Source of the DNA: a virus
Reading direction: 5' to 3' (one strand)
IMG/VR virus record: IMGVR_UViG_3300027983_001080
Location: 1-30,317 of that record
Length of the DNA: 30,317 nucleotides
Within the stretch, counting starts at the first letter, position 1. Each line of letters begins with the position of its first letter. Position numbers and translations under genes: made by a program. Below the pieces are notes generated by a model. It had not been told where the DNA came from. It saw only the letters and a program-made list of their open reading frames with translations, and did no database searches. Positions 1 to 30,240 of this stretch are shown here, piece after piece.

Positions 1-32
1 CACTCCCGTGGCGCCATTTTTAGGAGTTTAAG

Positions 33-590
33 ATGCCGAAAATAGCAGAAATTGAAGACACACCCAATCCGAACGCGGTGAAGTTTATCCTCAAGGAACC
101 GCTGAGTTGGGGGATAACACACTCGTATGACAATGCAGAGCAAGCAAAGGATGATACCCTTGCCTCCACACTATTCGACATCGAACACGTGACCAATGTG
201 TTTTATATCGATCGTTGGGTCACGGTCACACAGGACGGCGAAGCTGACTGGCCAGAATTAGTTCGTAAAGTCGCCGTGCCGATTCGAGCCGCACCAGCGG
301 CGGAAGAGCAATCTGCTACCACTGTTGCGGCGGCCTCTGCTGATACTGACCTAAGCCCTGAGGATAGTCGACGCCTTGATGTGATCAACGTGATGTTGGA
401 CGAGCAGATCCGCCCCTCGTTACAAGGAGATGGCGGTGACCTAAAAATAATTAATCTCAACAGTAACCAGCTAACAGTACACTACCAAGGTGCATGCGGA
501 ACCTGTCCGTCCTCAATAGCGGGAACGTTACGTGGCATCGAGAATCTACTTCGATCAATTGAACCTGATATCGAACTTGTGGCTGTTTAA
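33..590 (+). CDS. Nfu-type iron-sulfur cluster carrier (Nfu_N + NifU C-terminal domain)
   Basis: The 185-residue protein has two recognisable parts. Residues 1-88 match the Nfu N-terminal domain (opening MPKIAEIEDTPNPNAVKF). After an Ala-rich linker (about 88-105) comes a NifU C-terminal domain with the cluster-binding CxxC in GACGTCPSS. Proteins of this family hold a 4Fe-4S cluster at the interface of a dimer and pass it to target enzymes. TAGGAG 7 bases upstream supports the start. G+C is high for the window: bases 241-360 count 70 of 120 (58%), against 24 of 60 at 4321-4380 in nrdA, although part of that stretch encodes the Ala-rich linker. This suggests fairly recent acquisition from a bacterial host. 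The next gene is also an Fe-S carrier derivative. The family call is firm; the function in a phage is inference. Confidence 0.88.
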   Translation: MPKIAEIEDTPNPNAVKFILKEPLSWGITHSYDNAEQAKDDTLASTLFDIEHVTNVFYIDRWVTVTQDGEADWPELVRKVAVPIRAAPAAEEQSATTVAAASADTDLSPEDSRRLDVINVMLDEQIRPSLQGDGGDLKIINLNSNQLTVHYQGACGTCPSSIAGTLRGIENLLRSIEPDIELVAV

Positions 591-8260: not shown

Positions 8261-9952
8261 ATGGCAGACATGATAGCTAGTGCAAGAGCAATGACCACAG
8301 TAGCTGATAACCAATATGTGGCTATCGGCATGCCTAAGGGTGGCCTTACACCTGCAACTATCACTGCCATGGTTGGATTCCAAAGAGGGGGTGGAGAGGC
8401 CATCGATCTATCCTCAAATGTCAAATTGGCCATGGCAGAATTACAGACAGTAGCCGACAGCGGTGACTATCCCGCTAATGTGCAAGCGGCCTCAGCACTT
8501 TCTACATTAACTACGGTTCAGGCAAAATTATTTAATAAAAATGACTGTGGTGGGTTTGGTGCTATTGTAAGTCAGGCACAGTCACATTGTGATGACAGCA
8601 AGAATTTAATGTCAGCGACCAGTTTCCTTAAAGATTCTAACTACAGTGACTTTGGCAGTGGCATCAATGATCTCAGTAGCATGGGCGATCGCGGCATGAC
8701 CAACGTGTTTGGTGATTTACCTGGCGCAGGTGCGGCAATTAATTCAGGTGGGAAACTATGGAACGGCGTTGACGTAAAGAATCTTGGATCGCCTGGCGGA
8801 CTAGTTGAAGCATTCCAAAACAACAAACTAGCCAATGCCACAGGACTAAATCAAAAATTATCTGAAGCTGGAGTTGATCTAAATAATCTAGGTGACCCAG
8901 CATACAAAGATAAGATATCTGGAGTGCTGTCAAACATCAATGACCCAGCGGCACTTGACGCATCAGCAGAGCAGTTTGGGCAAGCAAACCCATTTGCTGG
9001 AATGCCAGCATACACAGGAACAGACTCTAGCATATACAAGAGTCCTAGCTTTTTAACTGGAGAGACTGCACCAGCACCGGTAGCAACGACAACAACATCT
9101 ACTTCATCATTTGGTGCCCCAGCAGTAACAACCAGAAGTTTCTCAACAACAACTGGAACAAGCACAACAGGAACGTCATTTGGAGCCACAACAGCACCAG
9201 CAGTAACAACAGGTGGTATACAGAGCCTTAAAGATCTTGGTGACTACACAAAGACTGCTGACCCAAGCACAACCTCAGGATTAGAAACAGACCTAGCGGG
9301 AGTTGGACTAAAGCTCAGCGACATGGGTGGAGGAAAGATGATAGATGCCACACAGGGATTAGCATTCTTTGGTAACATAAAGAAAGTAGAAACCCCGTTA
9401 ACTAACGCGGCCCACCCAACATTAAACAGTCTTATGATTGATAGTGACACTACATCAGCGATAGAAAGTATGATAGGCCTTCCTAGTGGGTCGACAGCTA
9501 TACCAAACATGCGTGACATATTAGGCCCAGTAGCAGGTAATCCAGAGATCGACGCACTAGCCGGCGGATATTCAGCTGATAAAGTTACAGCATTAGATAC
9601 CAGCCTTACAAAAACCAATGGATTCATCGCATCTGCCCAGCTACAGGCCAGCACAGGAACACCTACGCAAACATTGGGCAAGAACATGGGATTTGCCACA
9701 AACTTACACAAGTATGGAAAGGACATGAGTGAAGGTGGAGTAGGAACTATGTTAAGAAATATGGCCAATACAGCAACCAAGTATGGAGAATCGGTTGCGG
9801 CCAGTCTTGCAGAAGGTGAGAACAACAACTTGTTGGCATTAAATGGCATCGGTCCGTTGCAGACTAACCCATTTGAAGGAACTCCAAGCTATACGGGAAC
9901 AGACGGAAGTCTATACACAAATCCGCAGGTTAAAATGATGGGAGGCAGTTAA
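8261..9952 (+). CDS. Virion structural protein, low complexity, with an internal repeat
   Basis: 563 residues, rich in Gly, Ala, Ser and Thr, without signal peptide or membrane segments. A central Thr/Ser/Ala-rich linker (about residues 270-320: TTTSTSSFG, TTGTSTTGTSFG) separates two alpha-rich parts. A 27-residue unit recurs: QANPFAGMPAYTGTDSS... near residue 241 and QTNPFEGTPSYTGTDGS... at the extreme C-terminus (about 533), which suggests an ancestral duplication. Similar proteins are annotated as structural in marine T4-like phages. It is followed, in TAATG overlap, by a HEXXH protein. Promoters are not seen nearby, so it is probably read through from the nrd operon. Confidence 0.65.
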   Translation: MADMIASARAMTTVADNQYVAIGMPKGGLTPATITAMVGFQRGGGEAIDLSSNVKLAMAELQTVADSGDYPANVQAASALSTLTTVQAKLFNKNDCGGFGAIVSQAQSHCDDSKNLMSATSFLKDSNYSDFGSGINDLSSMGDRGMTNVFGDLPGAGAAINSGGKLWNGVDVKNLGSPGGLVEAFQNNKLANATGLNQKLSEAGVDLNNLGDPAYKDKISGVLSNINDPAALDASAEQFGQANPFAGMPAYTGTDSSIYKSPSFLTGETAPAPVATTTTSTSSFGAPAVTTRSFSTTTGTSTTGTSFGATTAPAVTTGGIQSLKDLGDYTKTADPSTTSGLETDLAGVGLKLSDMGGGKMIDATQGLAFFGNIKKVETPLTNAAHPTLNSLMIDSDTTSAIESMIGLPSGSTAIPNMRDILGPVAGNPEIDALAGGYSADKVTALDTSLTKTNGFIASAQLQASTGTPTQTLGKNMGFATNLHKYGKDMSEGGVGTMLRNMANTATKYGESVAASLAEGENNNLLALNGIGPLQTNPFEGTPSYTGTDGSLYTNPQVKMMGGS

Positions 9953-12867: not shown

Positions 12868-12896
12868 TTGACTTTTGGTTAAATTGGTGTTATAAT
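12868..12896 (+). promoter_or_regulatory. sigma70-type promoter of the plus-strand small-gene operon
   Basis: TTGACT (12868-12873), a 17-base spacer, and TATAAT (12891-12896). It precedes the gene at 12942 and probably the run to the terminator at 14107. Confidence 0.78.
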
Positions 12897-16429: not shown

Positions 16430-16743
16430 GTAGATTTATAACATATCCAAGCATGATAACAGAAGACAAGAATCAAACTATAGTGTTAGTTGATGCTACG
16501 GCAGCCGAACTAACACAGGTTGAGAGATTCCTACAGACCAGCAAACAAGATTTTGATGTGTATTTGTACCAAGGCGATTACGGTGATCTAGAATATTTAA
16601 ATGATATCTGTAAAGGTACCCGACCAGTATTAATCAATAGCAGTAGCAAGGTTAGTATAATACCAAGCGGAATTAGATACCAAGATGACCTAATGGATCA
16701 TTTTGAACAGATCGAACAATCTTTGGTTGACAACAATACATAA
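16426..16743 (+). CDS. Small phage protein, unknown function
   Basis: 105 residues, alpha/beta pattern (QTIVLVDATAAELTQVERFL, FDVYLYQGDYGDLEYLN, GTRPVLINSSSKVSII). The repeated strand-helix layout looks like a small Rossmann-type domain, possibly a CheY/receiver-like fold, but no phosphoacceptor or catalytic set is convincing. It overlaps the previous stop as ATGA. The promoter for the next gene starts inside its 3' end. Confidence 0.6.
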   Translation: MSRFITYPSMITEDKNQTIVLVDATAAELTQVERFLQTSKQDFDVYLYQGDYGDLEYLNDICKGTRPVLINSSSKVSIIPSGIRYQDDLMDHFEQIEQSLVDNNT

Positions 16744-16803: not shown

Positions 16804-17037
16804 TTGGAAAACGAAAATCCATTAAAAGGAACTGCGGTGTACGTTAGACATGATAACGTAGAACAAGCCTTGCGTAAGTTTAAGAAAAAAGTTATGTCTA
16901 GCGGGTTATTGCAGGAAATTCGTGATCGAGAATTTTATGAAAAGCCAACATGGGAACGCAAACGTAAAAAAGGTGCGGCAAAAGCTCGTTGGCGCAAAGA
17001 ATTATCAAAACAACAGTTGCCAAAAAAACTGTTTTAG
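16804..17037 (+). CDS. rpsU: Ribosomal protein bS21
   Basis: 77 residues that follow the bS21 pattern throughout: [40 protein letters not shown], then a basic C-terminus ([20 protein letters not shown]). In bacteria bS21 sits on the 30S platform near the anti-Shine-Dalgarno end of 16S rRNA and helps initiation. Phage-encoded bS21 is known in marine phages and is thought to exchange into host ribosomes to favour phage messages. The start is TTG at 16804, with AAGG 7 bases before it; the ATG at 16799 is out of frame. Two promoter types precede it and a hairpin follows. Confidence 0.93.
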
Positions 17038-17128: not shown

Positions 17129-19048
17129 ATGTCTAAGATCATCGGTATCGATTTAGGAACCACCAATTCATGCGTGGCTATTCTAGAAGGTAAAAATACA
17201 AAAATAATTGAAAATGCAGAAGGTGCGAGAACCACACCTAGTGTTGTTGCCTATACAGACAGCGACGTCCTAGTAGGTGCTCCTGCAAAACGTCAAGCAG
17301 TAACTAATCCAAAAAATACAATTTACGCATCAAAACGTCTAATAGGACGTAAGTTTGATGAAGAAGCTGTCCAAAAAGATATTGGCCTAATGCCGTACGA
17401 AATCTTTAAGAATTCTAATGGCGATGCTTGGGTTAAGGTAACTGATAAAAAACTAGCGCCACCACAAATATCTGCAGAAGTATTAAAGAAAATGAAGACA
17501 ACGGCCGAAGACTATCTTGGTTACGAGGTCACACAGGCAGTTATTACCGTTCCGGCATATTTCAATGATAGTCAACGCCAGGCGACAAAAGACGCAGGCA
17601 AGATTGCAGGGCTAGAAGTACTACGTATTATCAATGAACCAACTGCGGCCGCACTAGCATTTGGCATGGATAAACAAGAAAAAGGTGATCGTAAGATTGC
17701 TGTATATGACTTGGGTGGCGGTACATTTGATATTTCAATAATTGAAATCAGTAACATTGATGGTGAACATCAATTTGAAGTGTTATCAACTAACGGTGAC
17801 ACATTCTTAGGTGGCGAAGACTTTGACCAACGCCTTATGGACTATCTAGTTGATGAATTTAAAAAAGAGACAGGCTTTGACCTTAAAACTGATATACTTG
17901 CTCTACAACGTCTTAAAGAAGCCGCAGAAAAAGCTAAAATTGAACTGTCAAGCAATACTCAGACAGACGTCAACTTGCCTTATATCACTGCTGACTCTAC
18001 CGGACCCAAACATTTGAACGTAAAAATTACCCGTGCTAAATTTGAGACATTGGTTGAAGATTTAATTAAACGATCAATTGAGCCATGTAAGACAGCCGTA
18101 AAAGATTCTGGCACTAGCTTAGATGATATTACAGATGTTATCCTAGTTGGTGGGCAGACACGTATGCCCAAGGTACAAGAAGCAGTTAAGGCATATTTTG
18201 GCAAAGATCCACGCAAGGATGTTAATCCAGATGAAGCAGTAGCCGCTGGTGCCGCAATCCAAGGTGCTGTATTAGCAGGTGATACTACAGATGTTCTATT
18301 GTTAGACGTTACTCCGTTGTCATTAGGTATCGAAACACTAGGCGGTGTAATGACTAAATTAATCAAAAAGAATACAACTATACCCACCAAAGCTGGGCAG
18401 GTGTTTTCAACAGCAGATGATAACCAACAGGCTGTAACTGTGATAATTGGTCAAGGTGAACGTGAGTTTATGAAGGACAACAAGGTCCTTGGGCAGTTTA
18501 ATCTTGAAGGTATTCCACCAGCACGTCGAGGAGCACCACAAATTGAAATTAGTTTAGACATTGATGCTAATGGCATACTAAAAGTAAGTGCCAAAGATAA
18601 GACCACCGGCAAAGAAAACAAAATTACCATTAAAGCAAACTCAGGACTTACTGATGAGGAAATTGAGAAAATGGTGCAGGATGCAGAACTTAATGCAGAA
18701 GCAGATAAAACAGCAAGAGAATTAGTTGATGTTAAAAACTCTGCAGAAGCACAGCTACACGACATTAAGAAACAGGTAGAAGAACATGGTGATAAGATTA
18801 CCGCAGAACAAAAAACAGCGATCAATGATGCTGTTGCGGTTGTGGAACAAGCAGTTAAGGAAAACAGCAAAGATGCAATCACTGAAGCTGTAACTAAATT
18901 GGCTGAGCCACTAGCACCATTGTTCGAAGCACAGCAGGCAACTGAAAGTGCTACACAGGATTCAGAGAGCAAGGACGACAATGTTGTTGATGCCGAGTTC
19001 ACTGAAGTTAAGAAGGACGATGATGCCGATAAAGGGTCATCAAAATAA
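17129..19048 (+). CDS. dnaK: Molecular chaperone DnaK (Hsp70), full length
   Basis: 639 residues, complete. The ATPase domain has [35 protein letters not shown] and [14 protein letters not shown]; the interdomain linker is [15 protein letters not shown]; the substrate-binding domain has [18 protein letters not shown] and [15 protein letters not shown]; the helical lid and an acidic tail ([14 protein letters not shown]) follow. So the chaperone should be active in ATP-driven folding with J-protein and GrpE partners, which are not in this window and would come from the host. The sequence looks beta/gammaproteobacterial. AAAGGAG precedes the ATG. Full DnaK genes are uncommon in phages. It is followed 28 bases later by hsp20, suggesting one operon for proteostasis during infection. 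Confidence 0.97.
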
Positions 19049-19076: not shown

Positions 19077-19529
19077 ATGAAAGAAGTATACGTAAACAGT
19101 TTAGGCATTCCAGGCATACATAGATTTGCTGTGGGATTTGATAGAATGTTTGATGAGTTATCAAGGACAGCTGGCACACTTAACAGTTCCAACTATCCCC
19201 CATATAACATTATTAAAAATAACGAAACAACATACACCATTGAAGTGGCAGTAGCTGGCTTTGACGAAACTGAACTTGACGTTGAACTCAAAGACGGTGA
19301 ACTACATGTCAAAGGGGTGAAGGGAGACGACCTTAGCCAGTTAATGAAAGGTATTGATTATCTACACAATGGTATTGCGGCACGCAACTTTATAAGGACA
19401 TTTGCTCTGGCAGAGAATGTAGAAGTTCGTGGAGCAACTGTAAAGAATGGCATACTTTCGGTGACATTGGAACATATAATTCCAGAGTCAGCTAAGCCAA
19501 AAAAGATTGCAATTACTTTTCAGGGATAA
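19077..19529 (+). CDS. Small heat-shock protein Hsp20 (IbpA-like)
   Basis: 150 residues with an alpha-crystallin domain: [64 protein letters not shown], and an AKPKKIAI end holding the I-x-I-like oligomerisation tail. Hsp20 holds unfolding proteins for refolding by DnaK. Hsp20 genes of this type are a hallmark of T4-like cyanophages, so this is strong evidence for a phage genome. AAGGAG precedes the ATG. It follows dnaK with a 28-base gap and ends at a terminator. Confidence 0.93.
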
Positions 19530-19531
19530 TC

Positions 19532-20194
19532 TTAGATTAGGGCAGATTTCCTTGCCCTTTTCTTTTCCCATGTCGCTTTCCGTTTTGCCTTAGTTTCTTC
19601 AGATTGAGTCGCCCCGTACATATGGTTTTGAGTTCCCATTTTTGCAATTGATTGTTTTTGTTTTGTTTCGACACTTACATAATGCCCTTTTTTTGCCATC
19701 GATATCTTTTGCTTAGTAGAATCTGAATGGGGTTTACCTGAATGAAAAGTATTTCCTTTGTTACGTAATGATACGGCTTTTTTAAATTCATCAGACATAA
19801 CTCTGCCTTTATTTGCAACAGATAGGTTGGCTTTATGGTTGATTGATTGAGGACCTAATTTTGTCCCAACTGAATTACCGTCGAGTCCATTCTCGATTTG
19901 CAAATTTGCCCAATTATCGGAATTTACAATATCATGTAATAAGGAAAAAGAAATAGCAGTTTCGACTAATAAATCTATGTCCGTAAATAGTTGACTCCAC
20001 ACTGTGGTTACATCATTTCCGTGTATTGCGAGATGCCTGATCCAGTATAATCCCGAACCTTTATATGCTATAGGATTTTTTCTTGTAGTTTTACAGAAAT
20101 AGTTTAATCTAGTAGTATTGTGCTGTTTAATTATAAGCCAAGTTGGCTTAAAATTTTCTTTAATTGGAGGAGTTGAATTACTATAAATATTCAT
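19532..20194 (-). CDS. GIY-YIG-like/NUMOD3 homing endonuclease
   Basis: The frame is longer, but the likely start is M73 of that frame (20194); upstream sequence overlaps the clpS gene and promoter. The 220-residue product opens with TWLIIKQHNTTRLNYFCKTT, the GIY-YIG core, in which the usual Y-x-G of the second half reads YFC, so the glycine is replaced. KGSGLYWIRHLAIHGND and NANLQIENGLDG-type segments match phage Seg-like endonucleases. The C-terminal 80 residues contain NUMOD3-type DNA-binding repeats (HSGKPHSDSTKQKISMAKKG, SVETKQKQSIAKMG, QSEETKAKRKATWE). It is free-standing, not in an intron, and lies in opposite orientation between hsp20 and clpS. Catalytic competence is uncertain because of the changed motif. 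Confidence 0.78.
   Translation of the reverse strand: MNIYSNSTPPIKENFKPTWLIIKQHNTTRLNYFCKTTRKNPIAYKGSGLYWIRHLAIHGNDVTTVWSQLFTDIDLLVETAISFSLLHDIVNSDNWANLQIENGLDGNSVGTKLGPQSINHKANLSVANKGRVMSDEFKKAVSLRNKGNTFHSGKPHSDSTKQKISMAKKGHYVSVETKQKQSIAKMGTQNHMYGATQSEETKAKRKATWEKKRARKSALI
19539..19568 (+). terminator. Rho-independent terminator after hsp20
   Basis: AGGGCA (19539-19544) pairs with TGCCCT (19553-19558) around an 8-base loop, followed by TTTCTTTT. It overlaps the 3' end of the convergent homing endonuclease gene. Confidence 0.78.
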
Positions 20195-20253
20195 GCTGAC
20201 ATAGTTCCTTATGTTAGAGTAGTTGGTGACGCCAATCACGCGAACTACACTAT

Positions 20254-20261
20254 TATTTATC
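20254..20261 (-). promoter_or_regulatory. T4-late-type promoter box on the minus strand (GATAAATA)
   Basis: GATAAATA on the minus strand, 60 bases ahead of the homing endonuclease start and adjacent to the opposing clpS promoter. Confidence 0.33.
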
Positions 20262-20269
20262 AAAATAAG

Positions 20270-20298
20270 TTGACAGTTGGTATTTGTTTTGTTATAAT
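20270..20298 (+). promoter_or_regulatory. sigma70-type promoter for the clpS operon
   Basis: TTGACA (20270-20275), a 17-base spacer and TATAAT (20293-20298): both boxes are perfect. The leader to the clpS ATG is about 35 bases, with AAGGGA ahead of the start. Confidence 0.83.
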
Positions 20299-20339
20299 AA
20301 ATTATCAACAATAAATTCATTATACACGAAAGGGAATAC

Positions 20340-20648
20340 ATGGGCACAAAAGCAGTTACAAAAACAAAACCACAGCCAAACTTTGACCTTAAAGAACCCA
20401 TGATGTACAAAGTGATCTATATCAATGACGACGTGACCACACTGCAATTTGTTATTGAAACCTTGATGAAAGTATTTGGTCATAATCTTGAAGACGCTAC
20501 AATCATAACAGAAAAGATACACGGTGATGGCAGTGGAGTTGCGGCAGTGTTGCCCTACGAGATGGCAGAACAAAAAGGTGTCGAAGTAACACAAATGGCA
20601 CGCGGCAATGGATTTCCTTTACAGATCAAATTAGAACCCACTGAATGA
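20340..20648 (+). CDS. clpS: ClpS-like adaptor for the ClpAP protease
   Basis: 102 residues: a flexible 20-residue N-terminus, then a ClpS domain (MMYKVIYINDDVTTLQFVIE, VFGHNLEDATIITEKIHGDG, LPYEMAEQKGVEVTQMARGN, GFPLQIKLEP). In bacteria ClpS binds N-degron substrates and delivers them to ClpA. The residues of the N-degron pocket are mostly kept: NDD, the Thr two residues on, the His after the TEKI helix; the Met gate reads Leu. The phage could redirect host protein breakdown or protect its own proteins. No ClpA/ClpP is in the window. It heads a compact operon under a very strong promoter, and its stop overlaps the next start as ATGA. Confidence 0.88.
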   Translation: MGTKAVTKTKPQPNFDLKEPMMYKVIYINDDVTTLQFVIETLMKVFGHNLEDATIITEKIHGDGSGVAAVLPYEMAEQKGVEVTQMARGNGFPLQIKLEPTE

Positions 20649-22016: not shown

Positions 22017-22035
22017 TGTGTGGAGACAGACGACA

Positions 22036-22482
22036 ATGCGATACTTACTATTGGCGTGTTTGCTATTGACAAGTAGCATATATGCACAACCACTAAAAGA
22101 TTTTACATTTAAGAGTCCAGCCTTCAATGGAAATGGGTACTCGTCACATGTATTAACATTAGAAAATCAAGAACATACACGTAAGCAGGCTCTTGCAGAT
22201 AAAATAGAAGCTCGACTTAAAGAAGCTGAGCGTAATTCCGAAAGCACAAATCTTTCTAAGTTTATAAGTAACCTGGAATCACGTATATATGCACAGATAT
22301 CACAGGATTTAGCCACTGCTATGTTTACAGATGATGAATCATCACCTACTAGCGGAACATTAAATTTTGAAGGGAACATTATTAACTGGTCAAAAACGTC
22401 AGACATTATTAGTTTAAATGTAACAGATTTAGTAGGATCAACAACAAGTATATCTATACCGTTGGGTGATTTTACTTTCTAA
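22036..22482 (+). CDS. csgF: Curli assembly protein CsgF
   Basis: 148 residues. The signal peptide (MRYLLLACLLLTSSIYA) is followed by QPLKDFTFKSPAFNGNGYSS, the conserved mature N-terminus of CsgF that inserts into the CsgG pore and makes its second constriction, then a helical middle (HTRKQALADKIEARLKEAER) and a beta C-terminus ending IPLGDFTF. In bacteria CsgF couples curlin export to nucleation on the surface. The start at 22036 is chosen because it begins the signal peptide, with GGAGACAGA upstream. It overlaps csgG as TAATG, so the two pore components would be made together. Confidence 0.93.
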   Translation: MRYLLLACLLLTSSIYAQPLKDFTFKSPAFNGNGYSSHVLTLENQEHTRKQALADKIEARLKEAERNSESTNLSKFISNLESRIYAQISQDLATAMFTDDESSPTSGTLNFEGNIINWSKTSDIISLNVTDLVGSTTSISIPLGDFTF

Positions 22483-23390
22483 TGAGAACATTATTTTTAT
22501 TATTATGTGTGTTGTTTATATCAGGTTGTGCAACACACCAGACACTTAAAGGTGAATATGAACCACCTACGCTAGTTGAAAAGTCAACAGCAAAGGAGTT
22601 TGATACTATACCAAAACCTAAAATGGGCAAAGTAGTCGTTGCTGTTTATAACTTTACTGATAAAACTGGTCAAAGACGACCAAGTGATACGCAATCAAGT
22701 TTTAGTAATGCAGTTACACAAGGTGCAGATGCTTTCTTAATCAAAGCATTAAAAGATGTTGGCAACGGAGAATGGTTTGAAGTAGTAGAACGTGGAGGAC
22801 TTGCTAACCTTACACAAGAAAGACAAATTATTAGACAGATGCGTGAAGCCTATGATGGGCCTACCGCTAAGAAATTGATGCCAATGAAGTTTGCTGGTAT
22901 GTTAATAGAAGGCGGTATTACAGGATATGACACTTCAACAAGAAGCGGTGGCATTGGTATGCGAGTATTAGGAATAGGACCACAGTCACAGTTTAGTGAA
23001 GATATAATTACTATAAGTCTTAGAGCTGTAAGTGTTAATACTGGTACAGTTATTGCCGCAGTTAATGTACAAAAGACCGTGTACTCTACAGCAGACAGTA
23101 TGGCTATACTAAAGTTCTTTGATTCTGATACACAGATTTTTGAATTTGAGTCGGGTATTACATTAAATGAACCGGCTACATTAGCAGTAAAAACTACAGT
23201 TGAAGCGGCTGTAGTTGAGTTAATAAAAGAAGGTGAACGCAAAGATGTATGGGAATTTGCTGAAGGTGCAACTCCCTATCCAGCATTAATTGCTGATGAT
23301 GACTTGTATTCACTACCACTGACAGATGATAAAGAAACATCTTCAGGAGGTAAAAGTAACAACAATTCGCCCTTTGGCGTAGGAAGGTAG
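22482..23390 (+). CDS. csgG: Curli secretion pore lipoprotein CsgG
   Basis: 302 residues. The lipoprotein signal ends at SGC (C16). Family segments: GKVVVAVYNFTDKTGQRRPS, GADAFLIKALKDVGNGEWFE-VVERGGLANLTQER, KFAGMLIEGGITGYDTSTRS, ISLRAVSVNTGTVIAAVNVQ-KTVYS, and the C-terminal helix region ahead of an extra acidic, Ser/Asn-rich tail of about 45 residues. CsgG forms a nine-subunit outer-membrane channel for unfolded curlin. Length is somewhat above the E. coli protein (277) because of the tail. CsgG in pelagimyophages has been reported, with unclear function; here the cassette lacks CsgE. Confidence 0.95.
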   Translation: MRTLFLLLCVLFISGCATHQTLKGEYEPPTLVEKSTAKEFDTIPKPKMGKVVVAVYNFTDKTGQRRPSDTQSSFSNAVTQGADAFLIKALKDVGNGEWFEVVERGGLANLTQERQIIRQMREAYDGPTAKKLMPMKFAGMLIEGGITGYDTSTRSGGIGMRVLGIGPQSQFSEDIITISLRAVSVNTGTVIAAVNVQKTVYSTADSMAILKFFDSDTQIFEFESGITLNEPATLAVKTTVEAAVVELIKEGERKDVWEFAEGATPYPALIADDDLYSLPLTDDKETSSGGKSNNNSPFGVGR

Positions 23391-23391
23391 T

Positions 23392-24318
23392 ATGAAATTA
23401 TTAAAATTAGTTTTTCTGAGCATGTTATTAATGGCAACGTCATTGACGTTTTCCGCTGATAATAGTATATATATTGATCAGGCAGGTAGTAGTTCTACAA
23501 TCAATATTAAACAGGACGGTAGTGCTTCTAAAATTTATGGAGTAGGTGATTCTGAAGGAACAACCGCACTCTTTACAGGTGACAGTCAAACAGTTGATAT
23601 ACAACAACTAGGTTCAAGTAATGTGCTAGGTATTGATATGAATACCACAGTTACTTCAGGAGTTGGCGTTAACTTAACCTACTATATAACAGGTACTAAT
23701 TCCGTTTCAAGTATTGATATCAATGGCGATGGTCTAGGAATTGCGTCAAACAATAGTATTAATGTTCAGCAAAATGGTAACTACAGTGATTTTATACTTG
23801 ACCTACTAGGCACAGGTAATACAATAATAGCAACAACAACTGGCGGTACTGACAACGACCTGAACTTTACAATCAATGGTGACGGTATAACTCCAAGTAT
23901 TGCTGTATCTGGTGGTGGTAGTAATGGTATAACACTATCGTTATCATCGGATAATGCAGACGTTGATATTACAACAGCTGGTGCTTCAAATGCAGTTACT
24001 CTAACACAAAGTGGAGTTGGAGCTGTTGGCGGATTTGATTATGATTTATCTGTTGGTAGTTCTTCAAACACAATTACATCAACACAAGCAGATGTAGGTG
24101 CTCATGGAACAGACATTAGTATAACTTCTGCAGGCACTGGTAATACAGTTGTTACTAGTCAAACAGGTAGTACAGGATCAGCGGGACATGAAATAGATTT
24201 AGATATCGCAGGTGGAAGTAATAACGTAACTATTACACAAACTGGTGCACAAGACAATGATGCCAATATTGATATAACTGGTAGTAGTAATACCTGGACA
24301 ATTACACAGGAAGATTAA
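23392..24318 (+). CDS. Curlin-repeat amyloid protein (CsgA/CsgB-like)
   Basis: 308 residues. The signal peptide is MKLLKLVFLSMLLMATSLTFSA. The mature protein starts DNSIYIDQAGSSSTINIKQDG, closely like a segment in the PA14 fusion protein (DNSVYIDQAGTSNTIEITQSG). It continues as Asn/Gly/Ser/Thr-rich, about 22-residue repeats with the curlin N-x5-Q-x-G pattern (NSINVQQNGN, NAVTLTQSGV, NNVTITQTGA, NTWTITQED). Such repeats stack into amyloid beta-solenoids outside the cell after passage through CsgG. It begins one base after the csgG stop. It is about twice the length of E. coli CsgA, and the middle repeats are degenerate. Confidence 0.88.
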   Translation: MKLLKLVFLSMLLMATSLTFSADNSIYIDQAGSSSTINIKQDGSASKIYGVGDSEGTTALFTGDSQTVDIQQLGSSNVLGIDMNTTVTSGVGVNLTYYITGTNSVSSIDINGDGLGIASNNSINVQQNGNYSDFILDLLGTGNTIIATTTGGTDNDLNFTINGDGITPSIAVSGGGSNGITLSLSSDNADVDITTAGASNAVTLTQSGVGAVGGFDYDLSVGSSSNTITSTQADVGAHGTDISITSAGTGNTVVTSQTGSTGSAGHEIDLDIAGGSNNVTITQTGAQDNDANIDITGSSNTWTITQED

Positions 24319-24319
24319 A

Positions 24320-24490
24320 ATGCTTAAAGATGAAGTTGTTGTTATACAGAGTTACTACGGTAACAAGACTCTGTCATTTAGAGGATGGCTCAAATTAGAG
24401 CATAACGTAGACATTAATAATTTGACTGGTGAAGACCATGTTAAGTATCAGAAGCTATGGATAACAACTCCCCACTTTCTTGGATCCTAG
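24320..24490 (+). CDS. Small hypothetical protein in the curli cassette, 56 residues
   Basis: A 56-residue frame beginning one base after the curlin stop (MLKDEVVVIQSYYGNKTLSF-RGWLKLEHNVDI...), with AGGAAGA upstream, and overlapping the FecR gene by 34 bases. There is no signal peptide. Its strand-rich pattern looks protein-like, and coupling spacing supports translation, but no homologue is recognised. Confidence 0.5.
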   Translation: MLKDEVVVIQSYYGNKTLSFRGWLKLEHNVDINNLTGEDHVKYQKLWITTPHFLGS

Positions 24491-25575
24491 TAGTACTCCT
24501 TATAATGCCAACATTGGCATGGAGTAATGTTGGATCAGTAACTGACCAATTACACCAACCAGGAAGTATTACTCGCGACAAAGAACTTCTAGAAGCTATT
24601 AAAGGTACCGGCATTGAAATGAATGATGCCCTGCGTACCGGACAAGGCACACTTGAAATTACATTTAAAGATAATACAATAGTGCAGATGACCGAAAGTG
24701 CCAGAATGACTATTGATGACTTTGTCTATGATCCAAAAAATAAAGATTCTGGTAAACTAGTAATTAGAATTGCGGCAGGTACTGCCCGTTATGCATCAGG
24801 ACAAATTGCTAAAGATAAACCACAAGCAGTTAAAGTTAGAACTCCAACAGCAACAATATCAGTTCGTGGTACTGACTTTACAGCCACAGTTGATGAGATT
24901 GGTGCTACTACCGTTATACTTTTGCCTAGCTGTCCTTTTGGATGGGCATCTATAGAAGCAGATTGTAAAACAGGAGCAATTGATGTAGAATCAATGGGCG
25001 GTATAGTACACATGAATAAACCATTTGAAGCTACTCGCGTTCCTAATCTAGATACTAAACCAACTCCTCCGATTATTGTTGATCTAACTGAAGAAATGAT
25101 TAAAAATATTCTTATCCTTGGCCCTCCAAAAGAAATTCAAGAAGAAACAGTTGCAGTAGTGCAGAGCAACTCATTGGACGATAACGCATTAGATCAAGAT
25201 TTATTAGAAAACGAGTTAGACAAAGAAGAAGCGGCACTATACACAGATAGACTAAGTGACAATCTATTAGATAGATCATTCTTACAAAATGTTTTAGATA
25301 TTTTAGAACAACAATTGGCGGCGGCACAAGCAAGAACCTTATCAGCAGAAGAAGCGGATGGTCTACTACCTGACTATATTCCTGATCAAGGTGTTACGGC
25401 TATTGTTGATGTTATCTCAGTACAACTATGTATGGACACTACAGGGAGTGACATATCCTGTATTACTGTACCAACAACTCAGGATACCACAATCAGACAA
25501 ATACAAGGTACTGTTGATATTACAAACAGGGTAAATGATAGTGGAACAACAACTATCACTACGAATCAAAACTAA
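24457..25575 (+). CDS. Secreted FecR-domain protein of the curli cassette
   Basis: 372 residues. A signal peptide (SWILVVLLIMPTLAWS) precedes a FecR-type beta domain at about residues 40-190: LRTGQGTLEITFKDNTIVQM, GKLVIRIAAGTARYASG, VRTPTATISVRGTDFTATVD. The C-terminal half is acidic and helical (LDDNALDQDLLENELDKEEA, LQNVLDILEQQLAAAQ). FecR domains of this secreted kind occur beside curlin and surface-polymer genes in marine bacteria and may bind glycan or assist surface assembly. The start is set by the signal peptide; a clear ribosome-binding site is not seen. It overlaps the next start as TAATG. Confidence 0.85.
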   Translation: MDNNSPLSWILVVLLIMPTLAWSNVGSVTDQLHQPGSITRDKELLEAIKGTGIEMNDALRTGQGTLEITFKDNTIVQMTESARMTIDDFVYDPKNKDSGKLVIRIAAGTARYASGQIAKDKPQAVKVRTPTATISVRGTDFTATVDEIGATTVILLPSCPFGWASIEADCKTGAIDVESMGGIVHMNKPFEATRVPNLDTKPTPPIIVDLTEEMIKNILILGPPKEIQEETVAVVQSNSLDDNALDQDLLENELDKEEAALYTDRLSDNLLDRSFLQNVLDILEQQLAAAQARTLSAEEADGLLPDYIPDQGVTAIVDVISVQLCMDTTGSDISCITVPTTQDTTIRQIQGTVDITNRVNDSGTTTITTNQN

Positions 25576-26903
25576 TGAGACTATTTTTATTCATACTGTT
25601 AATGATGTTCGCCCAACTTGCTTACTCAGCAACTGGGTTAACTTACACGACTTGGTATTGTGGCAGTACTTGGCCTTGTGCCACAAGTGGTACAGCATTA
25701 TCTACTGGAACTATCTCATCTGGAGATGTTAATTATGATTGGGGTAGTGGCACTGTATTAGATTCTGGAAGAAGTGATTATGTAGTAGTTAGACTCGAAG
25801 GATATTTTGTAATGCCTGGAACAACTGGCACAAGTTATTCAGTTACATTTACTAATCAAGATGATGACGGGTCTAGAACTATTATTGGTGGAACAACAGT
25901 CGTTGATGATTGGTCCGGACTCCATCCTGCCGCTGATAGAAGTGGAACAATTACACTAGTTGGTGGAACAACATATTCATATTATAGAATAATGTCTGAA
26001 TGGGGCGGAGGTGCTGTGTTAAGACAATTTTGGTCTATAGATGGTGCAACCAGAACTTACATGAACTTTGCAGACGACTTTACAACAACATCAGGTCCGG
26101 TAACATCAACTACAACAGGTACAAGTCCAGGAGTTACTGCAGGTCAGACATCAAGAATGTCTACGTCAAGAACAAGAGCTACTACGGCAAGTAGTGGAAC
26201 TAATCCAGACAATTCAGTTTACATAGATCAGGCTGGTACTAGTAATACAATAGAAATAACTCAGTCAGGGTCTGCAGGTAATCACATACGTGGTATAGGT
26301 GTAGAAAATTCTGCCATAACAGGTGACTCAAATACCATTGAGCTTAAACAAGGTGATGATTCGGCTGGTGGGGTTAACCTTATTGAATTAATGGTCGACG
26401 GTGACACTAATGATATTAAACTCTGGCAAGATAGAAACGATGATGGCACAAAAGATACTGGTGCTAGTGGAGATCACATTATACAGTTAGATATCGACGG
26501 TAACCTAAACAATATTGATGTTGTTCAACGATCAAATGCTGGTAGTGACGGACATTATGCTGGAATTGATGTAGTAGGTAATAGCAATGCCATTGATCTT
26601 ATACAGTCTGGTAACTATGAAAAACAATTATTCCTTAACATTACCGGTAACAGCAATGTATTAGATCTTGACCAAACTGCTAATTCAAAAAAGTTTGCTG
26701 ATATAACGCTAACTGGCAATGGACACAATGTTACCCTCCAACAAAGAGGAGTTGGTGAACATAATGCCACTATTAATTTAACTTACGGTTCTTCAGCAAG
26801 TACACTTAACTTAGATCAAAATAGTTCAACAGCTCAAACATACAGTTTAGAACAAACCTGTTATACTATAGGTGGGTGCTCAGCAACCGTTACTCAAAAT
26901 TAG
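25575..26903 (+). CDS. Secreted PA14-curlin fusion protein
   Basis: 442 residues in three parts. Signal peptide MRLFLFILLMMFAQLAYS. A PA14-like beta domain occupies about residues 20-165: YVVVRLEGYFVMPGTTGTSY, TFTNQDDDGSRTIIGGTTVV-DDW, and YSYYRIMSEWGGGAVLRQFW, with the DDG and GGGAVLR hallmarks. A Thr/Ser linker (170-210) leads to curlin-like repeats (about 212-442), starting NSVYIDQAGTSNTIEITQSG and ending with a Cys pair (CYTIGGC) and ATVTQN. PA14 domains commonly bind carbohydrate. The fusion suggests a surface-anchored amyloid carrying a glycan-binding head, co-polymerising with the curlin at 23392. It overlaps the FecR gene by one base. Confidence 0.85.
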   Translation: MRLFLFILLMMFAQLAYSATGLTYTTWYCGSTWPCATSGTALSTGTISSGDVNYDWGSGTVLDSGRSDYVVVRLEGYFVMPGTTGTSYSVTFTNQDDDGSRTIIGGTTVVDDWSGLHPAADRSGTITLVGGTTYSYYRIMSEWGGGAVLRQFWSIDGATRTYMNFADDFTTTSGPVTSTTTGTSPGVTAGQTSRMSTSRTRATTASSGTNPDNSVYIDQAGTSNTIEITQSGSAGNHIRGIGVENSAITGDSNTIELKQGDDSAGGVNLIELMVDGDTNDIKLWQDRNDDGTKDTGASGDHIIQLDIDGNLNNIDVVQRSNAGSDGHYAGIDVVGNSNAIDLIQSGNYEKQLFLNITGNSNVLDLDQTANSKKFADITLTGNGHNVTLQQRGVGEHNATINLTYGSSASTLNLDQNSSTAQTYSLEQTCYTIGGCSATVTQN

Positions 26904-27508: not shown

Positions 27509-27537
27509 TTGACTTAGTAACACTATTATTGTATAAT
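27509..27537 (+). promoter_or_regulatory. sigma70-type promoter for rpoZ
   Basis: TTGACT (27509-27514), a 17-base spacer, and TATAAT (27532-27537). The upstream in-frame ATG at 27536 lies in the -10 box, confirming that translation starts at 27566. Confidence 0.8.
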
Positions 27538-27565
27538 GTATGTTAACACCAACTTGGAGACTTAC

Positions 27566-27820
27566 ATGGAAAGTAAAATCACAACAGTTAGCCCTAGTTT
27601 AGATGTAGAAAAAGCAGTAGAGATGGTAGGTGGTAGTCGTTTTGAATTGATCTTGATAGCCGCAACAAGAGCGAGAGAAATTGCTCAAAAACGAAATATT
27701 GCTAACGCCGCGGACTCATCATTGAAATTTCGTATGAAACCAAACATTGAAGCACTACAAGAGATAGAAGAAGGAAAAATTGGTCGAGACTATTTGTCTA
27801 AGGTAGCAAAAGCAAGATAA
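27566..27820 (+). CDS. rpoZ: RNA polymerase omega subunit
   Basis: 84 residues. LDVEKAVEMVGGSRFELILI-AATRAREIAQKR matches the core of bacterial omega, which clamps the C-terminus of the beta' subunit; NIEALQEIEEGKI matches the second conserved helix. Length is close to E. coli omega (91). In bacteria omega assists beta' folding and forms part of the site for the alarmone ppGpp. A phage-borne copy could replace host omega and alter promoter choice or the stringent response; that is inference. The start is set at 27566 behind TTGGAG. It has its own strong promoter and is followed 15 bases later by a small gene. Confidence 0.9.
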   Translation: MESKITTVSPSLDVEKAVEMVGGSRFELILIAATRAREIAQKRNIANAADSSLKFRMKPNIEALQEIEEGKIGRDYLSKVAKAR

Positions 27821-27835
27821 TTAAAGGAGTAACGG

Positions 27836-28003
27836 ATGTCAGATGAATTCACTGAAAAAGAATGGGAAGAGGCTATGAAGCGATTTTTAAAAGATGGTGG
27901 TGAAATACAAAAAATTGAAAGAGGCGTTAGTGGCCGTGAAGAAGGGGTTCCACAGTCAGCATGGGGCCGCCCTAAAAAGAAACCAGATGTACCTAAGGAA
28001 TAA
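27836..28003 (+). CDS. Small basic phage protein, 55 residues
   Basis: A 55-residue frame with AAAGGAG 7 bases ahead of the ATG: MSDEFTEKEWEEAMKRFLKD, then GGEIQKIERGVSGREEGVPQ and a basic end (SAWGRPKKKPDVPKE). The pattern FLKDGGEIxxxxxGVSGRxEGxxxSxWG is one I recall from short marine T4-like phage proteins of unknown function. The basic tail might bind nucleic acid. It would be co-transcribed with rpoZ. Confidence 0.68.
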   Translation: MSDEFTEKEWEEAMKRFLKDGGEIQKIERGVSGREEGVPQSAWGRPKKKPDVPKE

Positions 28004-28012
28004 AAGTTTTAT

Positions 28013-28088
28013 GCTCCCATCGTCTAGAGGCCTAGGACACCCGCCTTTCACGGCCGGGAGAGGAGTTCGATTCTCCTAGGGTGTACCA
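28013..28088 (+). tRNA. tRNA-Glu (UUC), with poorly paired stems
   Basis: 76 bases including CCA. The D arm (GTCT/GGAC, loop AGAGGCCTA) is that of bacterial tRNA-Glu, and the anticodon loop CTTTCAC holds UUC. The T arm (AGGAG-TTCGATT-CTCCT) pairs perfectly. The acceptor (GCTCCCA against AGGGTGT) has a T-T and an A-A mismatch plus a G-T end pair. The anticodon stem (CCCGC against GGCCG) pairs at only two of five positions in the standard register; a shifted CCCG/CGGG stem would give an 11-base loop. It may be degenerate or edited in structure. It lies 12 bases before a tRNA-Ser. Confidence 0.75.
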
Positions 28089-28099
28089 ATTTTAGTTTT

Positions 28100-28189
28100 G
28101 GAAGTGTGGCTGAGTGGCTTAAAGCAACAGTTTACTAAACTGTCGACCGGGAAACTGGTCCGTGGGTTCGAATCCTACCACTTCCTCCA
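28100..28189 (+). tRNA. tRNA-Ser with anticodon ACU
   Basis: 90 bases including CCA. The acceptor GGAAGTG/CACTTCC is perfect; the long variable arm (CGACCGGGAAACTGGTCCG) marks a class II tRNA, and the T arm GTGGG-TTCGAAT-CCTAC is sound. The anticodon arm is ACAGT-TTACTAA-ACTGT, with U33, anticodon ACU and A37. Normal bacterial tRNA-Ser for AGU/AGC has GCU, so A34 is unusual. It would read AGU best if unmodified. Confidence 0.88.
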
Positions 28190-28196
28190 ATAAATA
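28189..28196 (+). promoter_or_regulatory. Possible T4-late-type box (AATAAATA)
   Basis: AATAAATA begins at the last base of the tRNA-Ser CCA end and lies 4 bases before the cyclase ATG. If used, the transcript would be leaderless, so this box may be chance. Confidence 0.22.
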
Positions 28197-28200
28197 CGTT

Positions 28201-30240
28201 ATGCTCAAAAAAATATTAATCAGTCCGTGGACAGCCGTCATTACTCTCGCAGTAATCGTTTTCATATCCTTACAACAACCAACGTTCTTAGAAAGTGTCA
28301 AGCTAAGATACTTTGACACACTTATTACATCACAACCAGAACAGCAAACGACTATATCAACAGTTAACATTGATGAATCCGCATTAGAAAAATACGGACA
28401 ATGGCCTTTTAGTCGCGACATCTACGCAGACATAATCCAAGACTTATATGCCAGAGGTGCTGGACTAGTAGTATTCAATGTGCTTATGCCTGAACAAGAT
28501 AGACTAGGCAAGGACTCAGTGCTAGCTAAAACAATGGAAGAGTATCCAGTAGTACTTCCAAACTTTGGTAGTGACAAAACAAAGAACACGCCACGTAACC
28601 CTGGTGCTGTAATGATAGGTGACCCCACTGGCAAAGTAGTTGAGTACCCAGGCATAGTTGCATCAATTGACGAACTAGAAAGCCGTGCATATGGTACAGG
28701 AATATCAACAACATTTCCAGAAGTAGATGGTGTCACTCGTAGGATGCCAATGGTTATTAAAAGTGGTGATACTCTATACCCGAGCATGGCATTAGAAGTA
28801 TTACGTATTCTTGCAGGCGATCCCAGTTTCCAAATCAAGTTCAGTGATATAGGTATAGACAAACTTAGAGTACCTCAGTTTGGAATACTATCCACTGACA
28901 GTGTGGGACGTATATGGATTGATTATCAACAACGACCACAATCATACAGTCTAACTGAATTACCAGAAACATTTGATAGTGGTATAGTTATAGTAGGAAC
29001 AAGTGCTCAGGGTATCGCAAACCCAATAGCAACCAGTCGTGGTGAAGTATGGCCGCAGGACATGCAGGCCTCGGTAATAGCTACCCTAGTCCAAGGTATT
29101 AATATACAAAGACCTGATTGGGCTAGTGGAGCCGAACTATTGGCATTGGTAGGAATCAGCCTATTGTTGCTTATACTAAGTCGATGGGTGTATGTGGGCT
29201 TAGGTGCTAGTATTGTTGTGCTAGGTGCCATTGTGCCAGCCACAGGCTACCTGTATGCCAACTATCTGATGTTGTTTGATGCGACACTTATACTAGGTGG
29301 AGGCATATTAGTTGTGCTACATGCGTACGGTGTTAAGTTTGTTTCTGAGTTCCTACAGAAGCAAGAAATTAAGAAACAGTTTGCTGGTTATGCGTCACCA
29401 ACAGTGGTGCGTATGCTACAGGAAAATCCTGGACTAATCAAAGACGGTATGAAGCGAGAAATTTCAATTTGTTTCTCAGACTTACGTGGCTTTACTCCGT
29501 TAGGCGAGAGCTTTGGGGATGATGTTAAAGGACTTACTAAAATAATGAATGGCTACATGGATGCTATTACACAACCTATACTTGATGCAGATGGCATGGT
29601 AATTAAATACATTGGCGATGCCAGTATGCACGTACACAATGCTCCCAACGATGATCCCAACCATGCTAAGAATGCTGTGCAAACAGGACTAAACATGCTC
29701 AAGGCAGTAGTAAAATTCAATGATAAAATTGTAGCAGAGGGACGTCCACCAGTTGGCATGGGTGCTGGTATTAATACAGGACTAGGTTACTTAGGTGAAA
29801 TGGGGTCAACAGCTAGACATAGTTATGATGTACTTGGTGATGCTGTATCAACTGCCGCACGTATTGAAAGCAAGTGTAAAGAATACGGTTGCGTATTACT
29901 GGTAGGGCAAGCAACCTACGAACAAACTAAAGATGATTTCTTTTATTTAAAAGTAGATGACTTGGCAGTTAAAGGTAAAACTGTAGGAGTTGGTATATGG
30001 ACAGTGTTAGATGATGTAGTCAAACCTTATTATACTAGCCAGAAGAAACATCAAGAGATGTATGTTTTCTATCAGGCACAACAGTTTACAAAAGCAAGTA
30101 CACTATGCCTACAATTGAAGTCGCACTTCGAAGGTAAAATGTCTGGCTATTACGATATGTGGATTGAGCGTTGCGAGTACATGAAAACACAGAACTTACC
30201 TGCGGACTGGGATGGAATCTTTCACGCTTCGACGAAATAA
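28201..30240 (+). CDS. CHASE2-domain class III adenylate cyclase
   Basis: 679 residues. One N-terminal membrane helix (about 10-25) leads to a periplasmic CHASE2 sensor (about 30-290: VNIDESALEKYGQWPFSRDI, GAGLVVFNVLMPEQDR). Three close membrane helices follow (about 306-383), then a cytosolic cyclase domain (about 415-600). Compared with Rv1625c-type enzymes, the metal ligands D427 (FSDLRGF) and D473 (KYIGDASM), the adenine-selecting K469 and D543 (YDVLGD) and the transition-state R554 are present, but the partner Asn is Ser550 (GDAVSTAAR). So the enzyme should select ATP and make cAMP, perhaps slowly. The start is at 28201; an upstream in-frame ATG at 28162 lies in the tRNA. No ribosome-binding site is evident. 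A large sensor cyclase in a phage is unusual. Confidence 0.9.
   Translation: MLKKILISPWTAVITLAVIVFISLQQPTFLESVKLRYFDTLITSQPEQQTTISTVNIDESALEKYGQWPFSRDIYADIIQDLYARGAGLVVFNVLMPEQDRLGKDSVLAKTMEEYPVVLPNFGSDKTKNTPRNPGAVMIGDPTGKVVEYPGIVASIDELESRAYGTGISTTFPEVDGVTRRMPMVIKSGDTLYPSMALEVLRILAGDPSFQIKFSDIGIDKLRVPQFGILSTDSVGRIWIDYQQRPQSYSLTELPETFDSGIVIVGTSAQGIANPIATSRGEVWPQDMQASVIATLVQGINIQRPDWASGAELLALVGISLLLLILSRWVYVGLGASIVVLGAIVPATGYLYANYLMLFDATLILGGGILVVLHAYGVKFVSEFLQKQEIKKQFAGYASPTVVRMLQENPGLIKDGMKREISICFSDLRGFTPLGESFGDDVKGLTKIMNGYMDAITQPILDADGMVIKYIGDASMHVHNAPNDDPNHAKNAVQTGLNMLKAVVKFNDKIVAEGRPPVGMGAGINTGLGYLGEMGSTARHSYDVLGDAVSTAARIESKCKEYGCVLLVGQATYEQTKDDFFYLKVDDLAVKGKTVGVGIWTVLDDVVKPYYTSQKKHQEMYVFYQAQQFTKASTLCLQLKSHFEGKMSGYYDMWIERCEYMKTQNLPADWDGIFHASTK

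Follow-up and report, generated by a model that had tools for sequence, protein, structure and literature searches.

A Phage-Encoded Homolog of the RNA Polymerase Omega Subunit Paired With a SutA-Like Gene in Uncultivated Phages

Introduction

Phages modify, inhibit or replace the RNA polymerase of their hosts. The multisubunit RNA polymerases of jumbo phages are built from phage homologs of cellular polymerase subunits and contain beta/beta' parts without alpha and omega (PMC7598289). Phages also encode the ribosomal protein bS21, a small subunit of a host machine that has been suggested to take the place of its counterpart in the host complex (PMC9723584). The locus described here resembles both systems in part: it reverses the arrangement of the jumbo-phage enzymes, as it encodes omega without beta', and it differs from the bS21 case in that the target would be RNA polymerase instead of the ribosome. 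Searches of open-access papers yielded no description of a phage omega.

Several properties of the bacterial proteins bear on what such a gene might do. Omega acts as a chaperone for beta' (PMC7700224), and in Escherichia coli ppGpp binds at site 1 of the polymerase, where its phosphates are coordinated by omega residues 2–5 and by R417 and K615 of beta'; loss of this site by itself has a modest effect only (PMC7676912). Host omega is also the subunit through which GafA works in the expression of gene transfer agents (PMC9638019). SutA of Pseudomonas aeruginosa grips the beta protrusion, and activation by this protein requires its acidic N-terminal region (PMC9300723).

The DNA analyzed here, an IMG/VR record of 30,317 bases that may be a fragment of a longer genome, is referred to as the window. 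An initial annotation, based on its letters alone, had proposed a phage-encoded omega subunit behind a strong promoter at positions 27509–27820. Re-reading of the sequence bore out these coordinates, and the features of the locus are collected in Table 1.

Table 1. Features of the omega locus and its surroundings in the window.
Feature	Coordinates	Strand	Evidence
Upstream operon: CsgF-like, CsgG, curlin repeat, FecR-like, curlin repeat	22018..26903	+	Pfam CsgG; Melnitz gene order
Sigma70-type promoter, TTGACT-17-TATAAT	27509..27537	+	11/12 consensus matches; kept before omega in L007–L009
Omega ribosome-binding site, GGAG	27556..27559	+	Sequence
RNA polymerase omega subunit homolog, 84 aa	27566..27820	+	PF01192, TIGR00690, AF2 model, selection in relatives
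Codons for omega residues 10–13, P-S-L-D (register of E. coli A2-R3-V4-T5)	27593..27604	+	RF anchor and structural alignment
Ribosome-binding site of SutA-like gene, AAAGGAG	27823..27829	+	Sequence
55-aa protein with SutA RNA polymerase-binding domain (residues 11–34)	27836..28003	+	PF20661
tRNA-Glu-like sequence, sub-threshold	28013..28085	+	Rfam 23.0 bits (cut-off 29); missed by ARAGORN
tRNA-Ser, anticodon ACT	28100..28189	+	ARAGORN; Rfam 55.7 bits
CHASE2 and adenylate/guanylate cyclase	28162..30240	+	PF05226, PF00211; 52% identity to Melnitz

Identity and Fold of the Phage Omega Protein

The 84-aa product is confirmed as a homolog of the omega subunit of RNA polymerase. It exceeds the curated cut-offs of both Pfam PF01192 (38.9 bits against 26, E 8.5e-10) and NCBIfam TIGR00690 rpoZ (31.9 bits against 23.6) and falls short of the stricter NCBIfam model NF001579 (20 against 58 bits). 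The initial annotation had noticed the resemblance in two conserved helices; the alignment extends beyond these, as PDB omega chains matched residues 13–78 (phmmer, E 1.3e-6) and thus most of the protein. The open reading frame ends with a stop codon at 27818–27820, and an alternative ATG lies upstream at 27536. The 84-aa start is preferred because this alternative sits inside the -10 element of the promoter.

An AF2 model built with 31 phage sequences (pLDDT 85.7) consists of four helices preceded by a disordered N-terminus and has the omega fold when compared by VIA-align and Foldseek. All 50 matches listed by VIA-align were RNA polymerase entries, the best rows being omega (6wmr_E at the top, with Z 8.1, rmsd 2.5 and 70 aligned residues), and the top Foldseek rows for the 84-residue model were omega chains at probability 1.00 with weak E-values of at least 0.03. 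The best structure matches in a viral library, at TM 0.6–0.76, were the BFVD entries A0A6J5T227 and A0A6J7WH19 of uncultured Caudovirales phage, which are named merely "DNA-directed RNA polymerase"; phage omegas have therefore already been deposited.

The phage proteins thus share with bacterial omega (RpoZ) its fold, core motif, length and above-cut-off profile scores. Identity to bacterial omegas is only ~37–49%, the core RF-L-L-A..RAR is kept, and conservation among the phage proteins is highest at omega core positions (G, F, L, A and RxR). The differences from the bacterial subunit are that the phage omegas are encoded beside tRNA genes, are frequently extended at the N-terminus and end in a GRxYLKK tail, have a changed site 1 segment and group separately from the sampled bacterial omegas.

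Relatives in Other Uncultivated Phages

Whether other phages carry rpoZ, a point raised by the initial annotation, was addressed by scanning the viral contigs of IMG/VR with a three-sequence omega alignment, which reported 260 related loci. The best 80 of the 260 were analyzed and, together with the window, yielded 58 different omega proteins. A related omega is present in dozens of further uncultivated phages. Cultured phages gave a different picture. PHROGs contains no omega family, and a tblastn search of INPHARED with the window omega returned six weak matches only, two of them annotated bacterial omegas. Two other phage omegas used as queries gave similar matches and, in addition, rpoZ from records of 240 kb labeled "Acinetobacter phage", taken as likely bacterial. 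No convincing omega was found among the cultured phages of INPHARED.

The neighborhoods of the phage and bacterial genes differ sharply. Among the best 80 of the 260 relatives, at least one tRNA lay no more than 1.5 kb from omega at every locus (median 5) and gmk was never its neighbor, whereas 78 of 80 bacterial loci had both gmk and spoT and only two had any tRNA. In a tree of 71 sequences, a branch with support of 100/97 splits the phage omegas from the sampled bacterial ones and the window groups with relatives L007 and L010 (100/98), on few alignment columns and with long branches. Among pairs of phage omegas at 75–97% DNA identity, the median dN/dS was 0.11 (306 non-independent pairs, drawn from the relatives and not from the window itself), indicating that the omegas of these related phages are under purifying selection.

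A Sigma70-Type Promoter

The claim that a strong sigma70-type promoter precedes omega is supported. Its -35 (TTGACT, 27509–27514) and -10 (TATAAT, 27532–27537) elements are separated by a 17-nt spacer. Sites with this spacer that agree with the consensus at 11 or more of 12 positions occur five times on the plus strand of the window (at 12868, 16727, 20270, 27509 and 30251) and not at all on the minus strand, with 0.32 expected per strand. A looser scan of the window was uninformative, with no excess over shuffles (35 vs. 34.2). In the nearest relatives, L007, L008 and L009, identical hexamers with the same spacing stand 29 bp before the omega ATG, compared with 28 bp in the window, while the spacer sequence itself largely differs. 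Because the promoter is of the sigma70 type, and because such promoters have been classed as early in Melnitz, a related phage (PMC9004378), we infer that omega would be expressed early.

Altered Residues in the ppGpp Site 1 Segment

The register of the site 1 segment was set by stepping backward from RF, a conserved anchor, and granting one residue to the GG variant, and structural alignment agrees (model residues 10..84 to 4jk1_J 2..71). The ppGpp-contacting N-terminal residues, the retention of which bears on the suggestion that a viral omega could blunt starvation signaling, are not kept: the E. coli segment A-R-V-T is replaced by P-S-L-D in the window, K-D-L-D in L007 and E-S-L-D in L010. 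The bacterial comparison set was picked by similarity to the phage profile, is mostly gammaproteobacterial and had its starts set by rule; within that sample, A-R-[VI]-T is present in 88 of 90 omegas, and the window departs from this pattern. The phage segment mostly reads x-x-[ILV]-D. An acidic residue occupies the R3 or T5 position in 83% of the 58 phage omegas and in none of the 90 bacterial ones, and a basic residue is found at the R3 position in 12% of the phage proteins. Two phage omegas keep MA[RK] and five have a shifted ARYT, so loss of site 1 is predicted for most, not all, of them.

These substitutions are compatible with a changed ppGpp response, and site 1 is probably impaired in the phage omega. 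The contacts made by omega at this site may be formed partly through the backbone, and the changed residues would matter only if the host enzyme has a ppGpp site 1.

A SutA-Like Gene Follows Omega

Omega and the gene behind it form an operon-like pair, the second member of which the initial annotation overlooked. The downstream open reading frame begins 15 nt past the omega stop, and its 55-aa product matches PF20661 above the cut-off (36.1 bits against 29.3, E 4.1e-9), while a direct comparison with the PDB chain of SutA (7f0r_G) gave only E 0.59 by phmmer. It shares with P. aeruginosa SutA this domain and a helix followed by GG-x-[IV]-Q. In contrast to that protein, it is only 55 aa long, its domain starts at residue 11, it has no long D/E-rich region at the N-terminus of the kind that activation requires, and it ends in a tail, SGRxEGxxxSAWGRPKK, that is specific to the phages. 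Without this region it is best described as a protein with the SutA RNA polymerase-binding domain (SutA-RBD) and not as SutA itself, and its effect may differ from that of SutA, since it would supply binding without the long acidic region.

Homologs of the SutA-like gene directly follow omega in L010, L030, L052 and L057 and lie ~2 kb downstream of it in L046. A scan of viral contigs with the single SutA-like protein found nothing, and a scan with an alignment found four; G437, a 214-kb contig picked up only by way of the SutA-like protein, turned out to contain omega as well, ~10 kb away. The L221 protein exceeds the Pfam cut-off (33.6 bits), those of L030 and L052 fall below it and that of L010 has no Pfam match, so the kinship of the last three to the SutA-like protein rests on alignment. 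In L221 (3968–4222), the acidic D/E-rich stretch is C-terminal to the binding domain, the reverse of the order in P. aeruginosa SutA. In L007, a gene for a FeoA-domain protein (PF04023; 6259–6483) follows omega in place of the SutA-like gene of the window.

Gene Order Around Omega

The genes surrounding the pair have counterparts in Methylophilales phage Melnitz EXVC044M and Pelagibacter phage HTVC008M (Kyanoviridae), which share with the window the CsgF-CsgG-curlin-FecR-curlin-cyclase operon. In both of these phages the operon runs straight into the cyclase gene; neither genome contains omega anywhere, and neither has a SutA-RBD match. Read from matches to annotated Melnitz genes, the order PDDEXK, NrdA, NrdB, bS21, Hsp20, CsgF, CsgG, curlin, FecR, curlin, cyclase is common to the window and two other contigs, G004 (149 kb) and G005 (72 kb), and in all three omega is flanked by the last curlin gene on one side and the cyclase gene on the other. 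The place of omega is conserved across three diverged lineages. The genes in common between the window and Melnitz are PDDEXK, RNR, bS21, Hsp20, the curli operon and the cyclase; none of the Melnitz matches in the window is a gene for capsid, terminase or DNA polymerase. G004 has matches to gp43 (DNA polymerase), gp44 (clamp loader) and PhoH and none to gp23 or Terminase_6N. Because the latter two were not found in most omega records, these are not all called T4-like.

The cyclase coordinates in Table 1 are those of the longest open reading frame, which starts at GTG 28162 and overlaps tRNA-Ser; the Melnitz alignment begins at 28219, and the start is likely ATG 28203. A tRNA-Ser with the same unusual anticodon is found in L010 (6678–6767), which also has an intact tRNA-Glu where the window has the sub-threshold sequence.

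Elsewhere in the window lie other genes of host type. A bS21 gene (16804–17037; PF01165, 61.6 bits), encoding another small subunit of a host machine, has a TTGACA-17-TATACT promoter at 16727. Full-length DnaK (17129–19048), Hsp20 (19077–19529), ClpS (20340–20648) and a two-domain Nfu-type protein (33–590) are also encoded; this combination of chaperone, protease-adaptor and Fe-S genes of host type is unusual. An open reading frame on the minus strand (19532–20410), resembling by eye a homing endonuclease of GIY-YIG/NUMOD type, overlaps the clpS start as well as the promoter at 20270, a perfect TTGACA-17-TATAAT. A 563-aa protein (8261–9952), slightly downstream of RNR and glutaredoxin-like genes, has no PHROGs match at E 0.1.

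Four omega-bearing records encode HD_4 proteins that resemble small alarmone hydrolases (L059 7742–8278, L070 7542–8078, L071 8786–9322 and G038 61186–61578). The four SpoT-like matches among the omega-bearing records fall, where read, in HD proteins of 178 aa and do not represent SpoT. Such proteins would fit a ppGpp theme; HD-family proteins are frequent in phages that have been cultured (281 records), and finding one beside omega is therefore no proof of a link.

A Proposed Model of Host Polymerase Re-Fitting and Its Alternatives

A viral partner for the phage omega was sought and not found: the beta' domain PF00623 was absent from the window and from 38 omega-bearing records, while the control was positive in 14 of 14 genomes. 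The partner is therefore most likely the host enzyme. In the explanation that we favor, with moderate confidence as a whole, phage omega would be made early from a host-type sigma70 promoter, along with the 55-aa SutA-RBD protein, and would bind host beta', replacing or competing with host omega. It would retain the beta'-binding core. With A-R-V-T, the segment in contact with ppGpp at site 1, gone from the subunit, the starvation signal should have a weaker effect on the hybrid enzyme, and the SutA-like protein would attach to the beta protrusion of that polymerase. Incorporation of phage omega into host RNA polymerase is the step that we regard as probable. A weaker ppGpp response of the hybrid enzyme is put forward tentatively, as somewhat short of an even chance, and joint action of the two proteins is likewise a tentative suggestion. 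That the two genes form a cassette re-fitting the host polymerase, through an omega with a defective site 1 and a beta-anchored protein, for transcription in slow-growing or starved hosts is a more speculative extension and on balance unlikely.

The alternative that survives best, although improbable, is that phage omega is a plain supplement, aiding the folding and assembly of beta' and yielding more active host polymerase with no special effect on ppGpp. The chaperone role of omega (PMC7700224) and the retained RF-L-L-A..RAR core are in keeping with this idea, as is the rise of host rpoZ alongside other polymerase genes during pelagiphage infection (PMC12753301), but it leaves unexplained both the N-terminal change to x-x-[ILV]-D and the pairing with a SutA-RBD gene in several phages. 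Less probable again is that phage omega serves as a docking site through which a phage activator steers host polymerase to phage promoters. GafA provides a precedent for regulation via omega, and the frequent N-terminal extension and GRxYLKK tail could be accommodated; however, the nearest neighbors of the gene are SutA-RBD, tRNAs and a cyclase. We find it hard to credit that the omega fold has been kept for some other job and RNA polymerase binding lost: the low identity to bacterial omegas would allow it, but conservation peaks in the omega core and a second RNA polymerase-binding domain is paired with the protein. Finally, bacterial contamination or a chance assembly passenger useless to the phage can be dismissed as extremely improbable, since, although the source is a metagenome assembly and some database "phage" matches are enterobacterial-like omegas that may be contaminants (e.g., on 1.5-kb fragments), the gmk/spoT neighbor test came out against bacterial origin in loci with tRNA arrays (the best 80 of 260), the phage omegas form a distinct clade whose related members are under purifying selection, and the gene order is common to three diverged contigs, one of them 149 kb long with T4-like replication genes.

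A Mycobacterium rpoZ mutant that resists phage Muddy was considered as support for a role of omega in infection and dropped, the authors of that study having suggested surface changes (PMC8092298).

Implications

A phage supplying a core subunit of host RNA polymerase is, as far as found in open-access papers, undescribed. The occurrence of omega in phages calls for caution where rpoZ is taken to mark bacteria alone in metagenomic data, a use to which it has been put (PMC10134851). If the favored explanation is true, the disputed role of omega would become testable through natural variants, and attention would be drawn to ppGpp as a signal evaded by phages. On the more speculative cassette reading, remodeling of a host machine through subunit exchange would be a strategy of many uncultivated phages. 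These phages may re-fit the transcription machine of the host instead of bringing their own.
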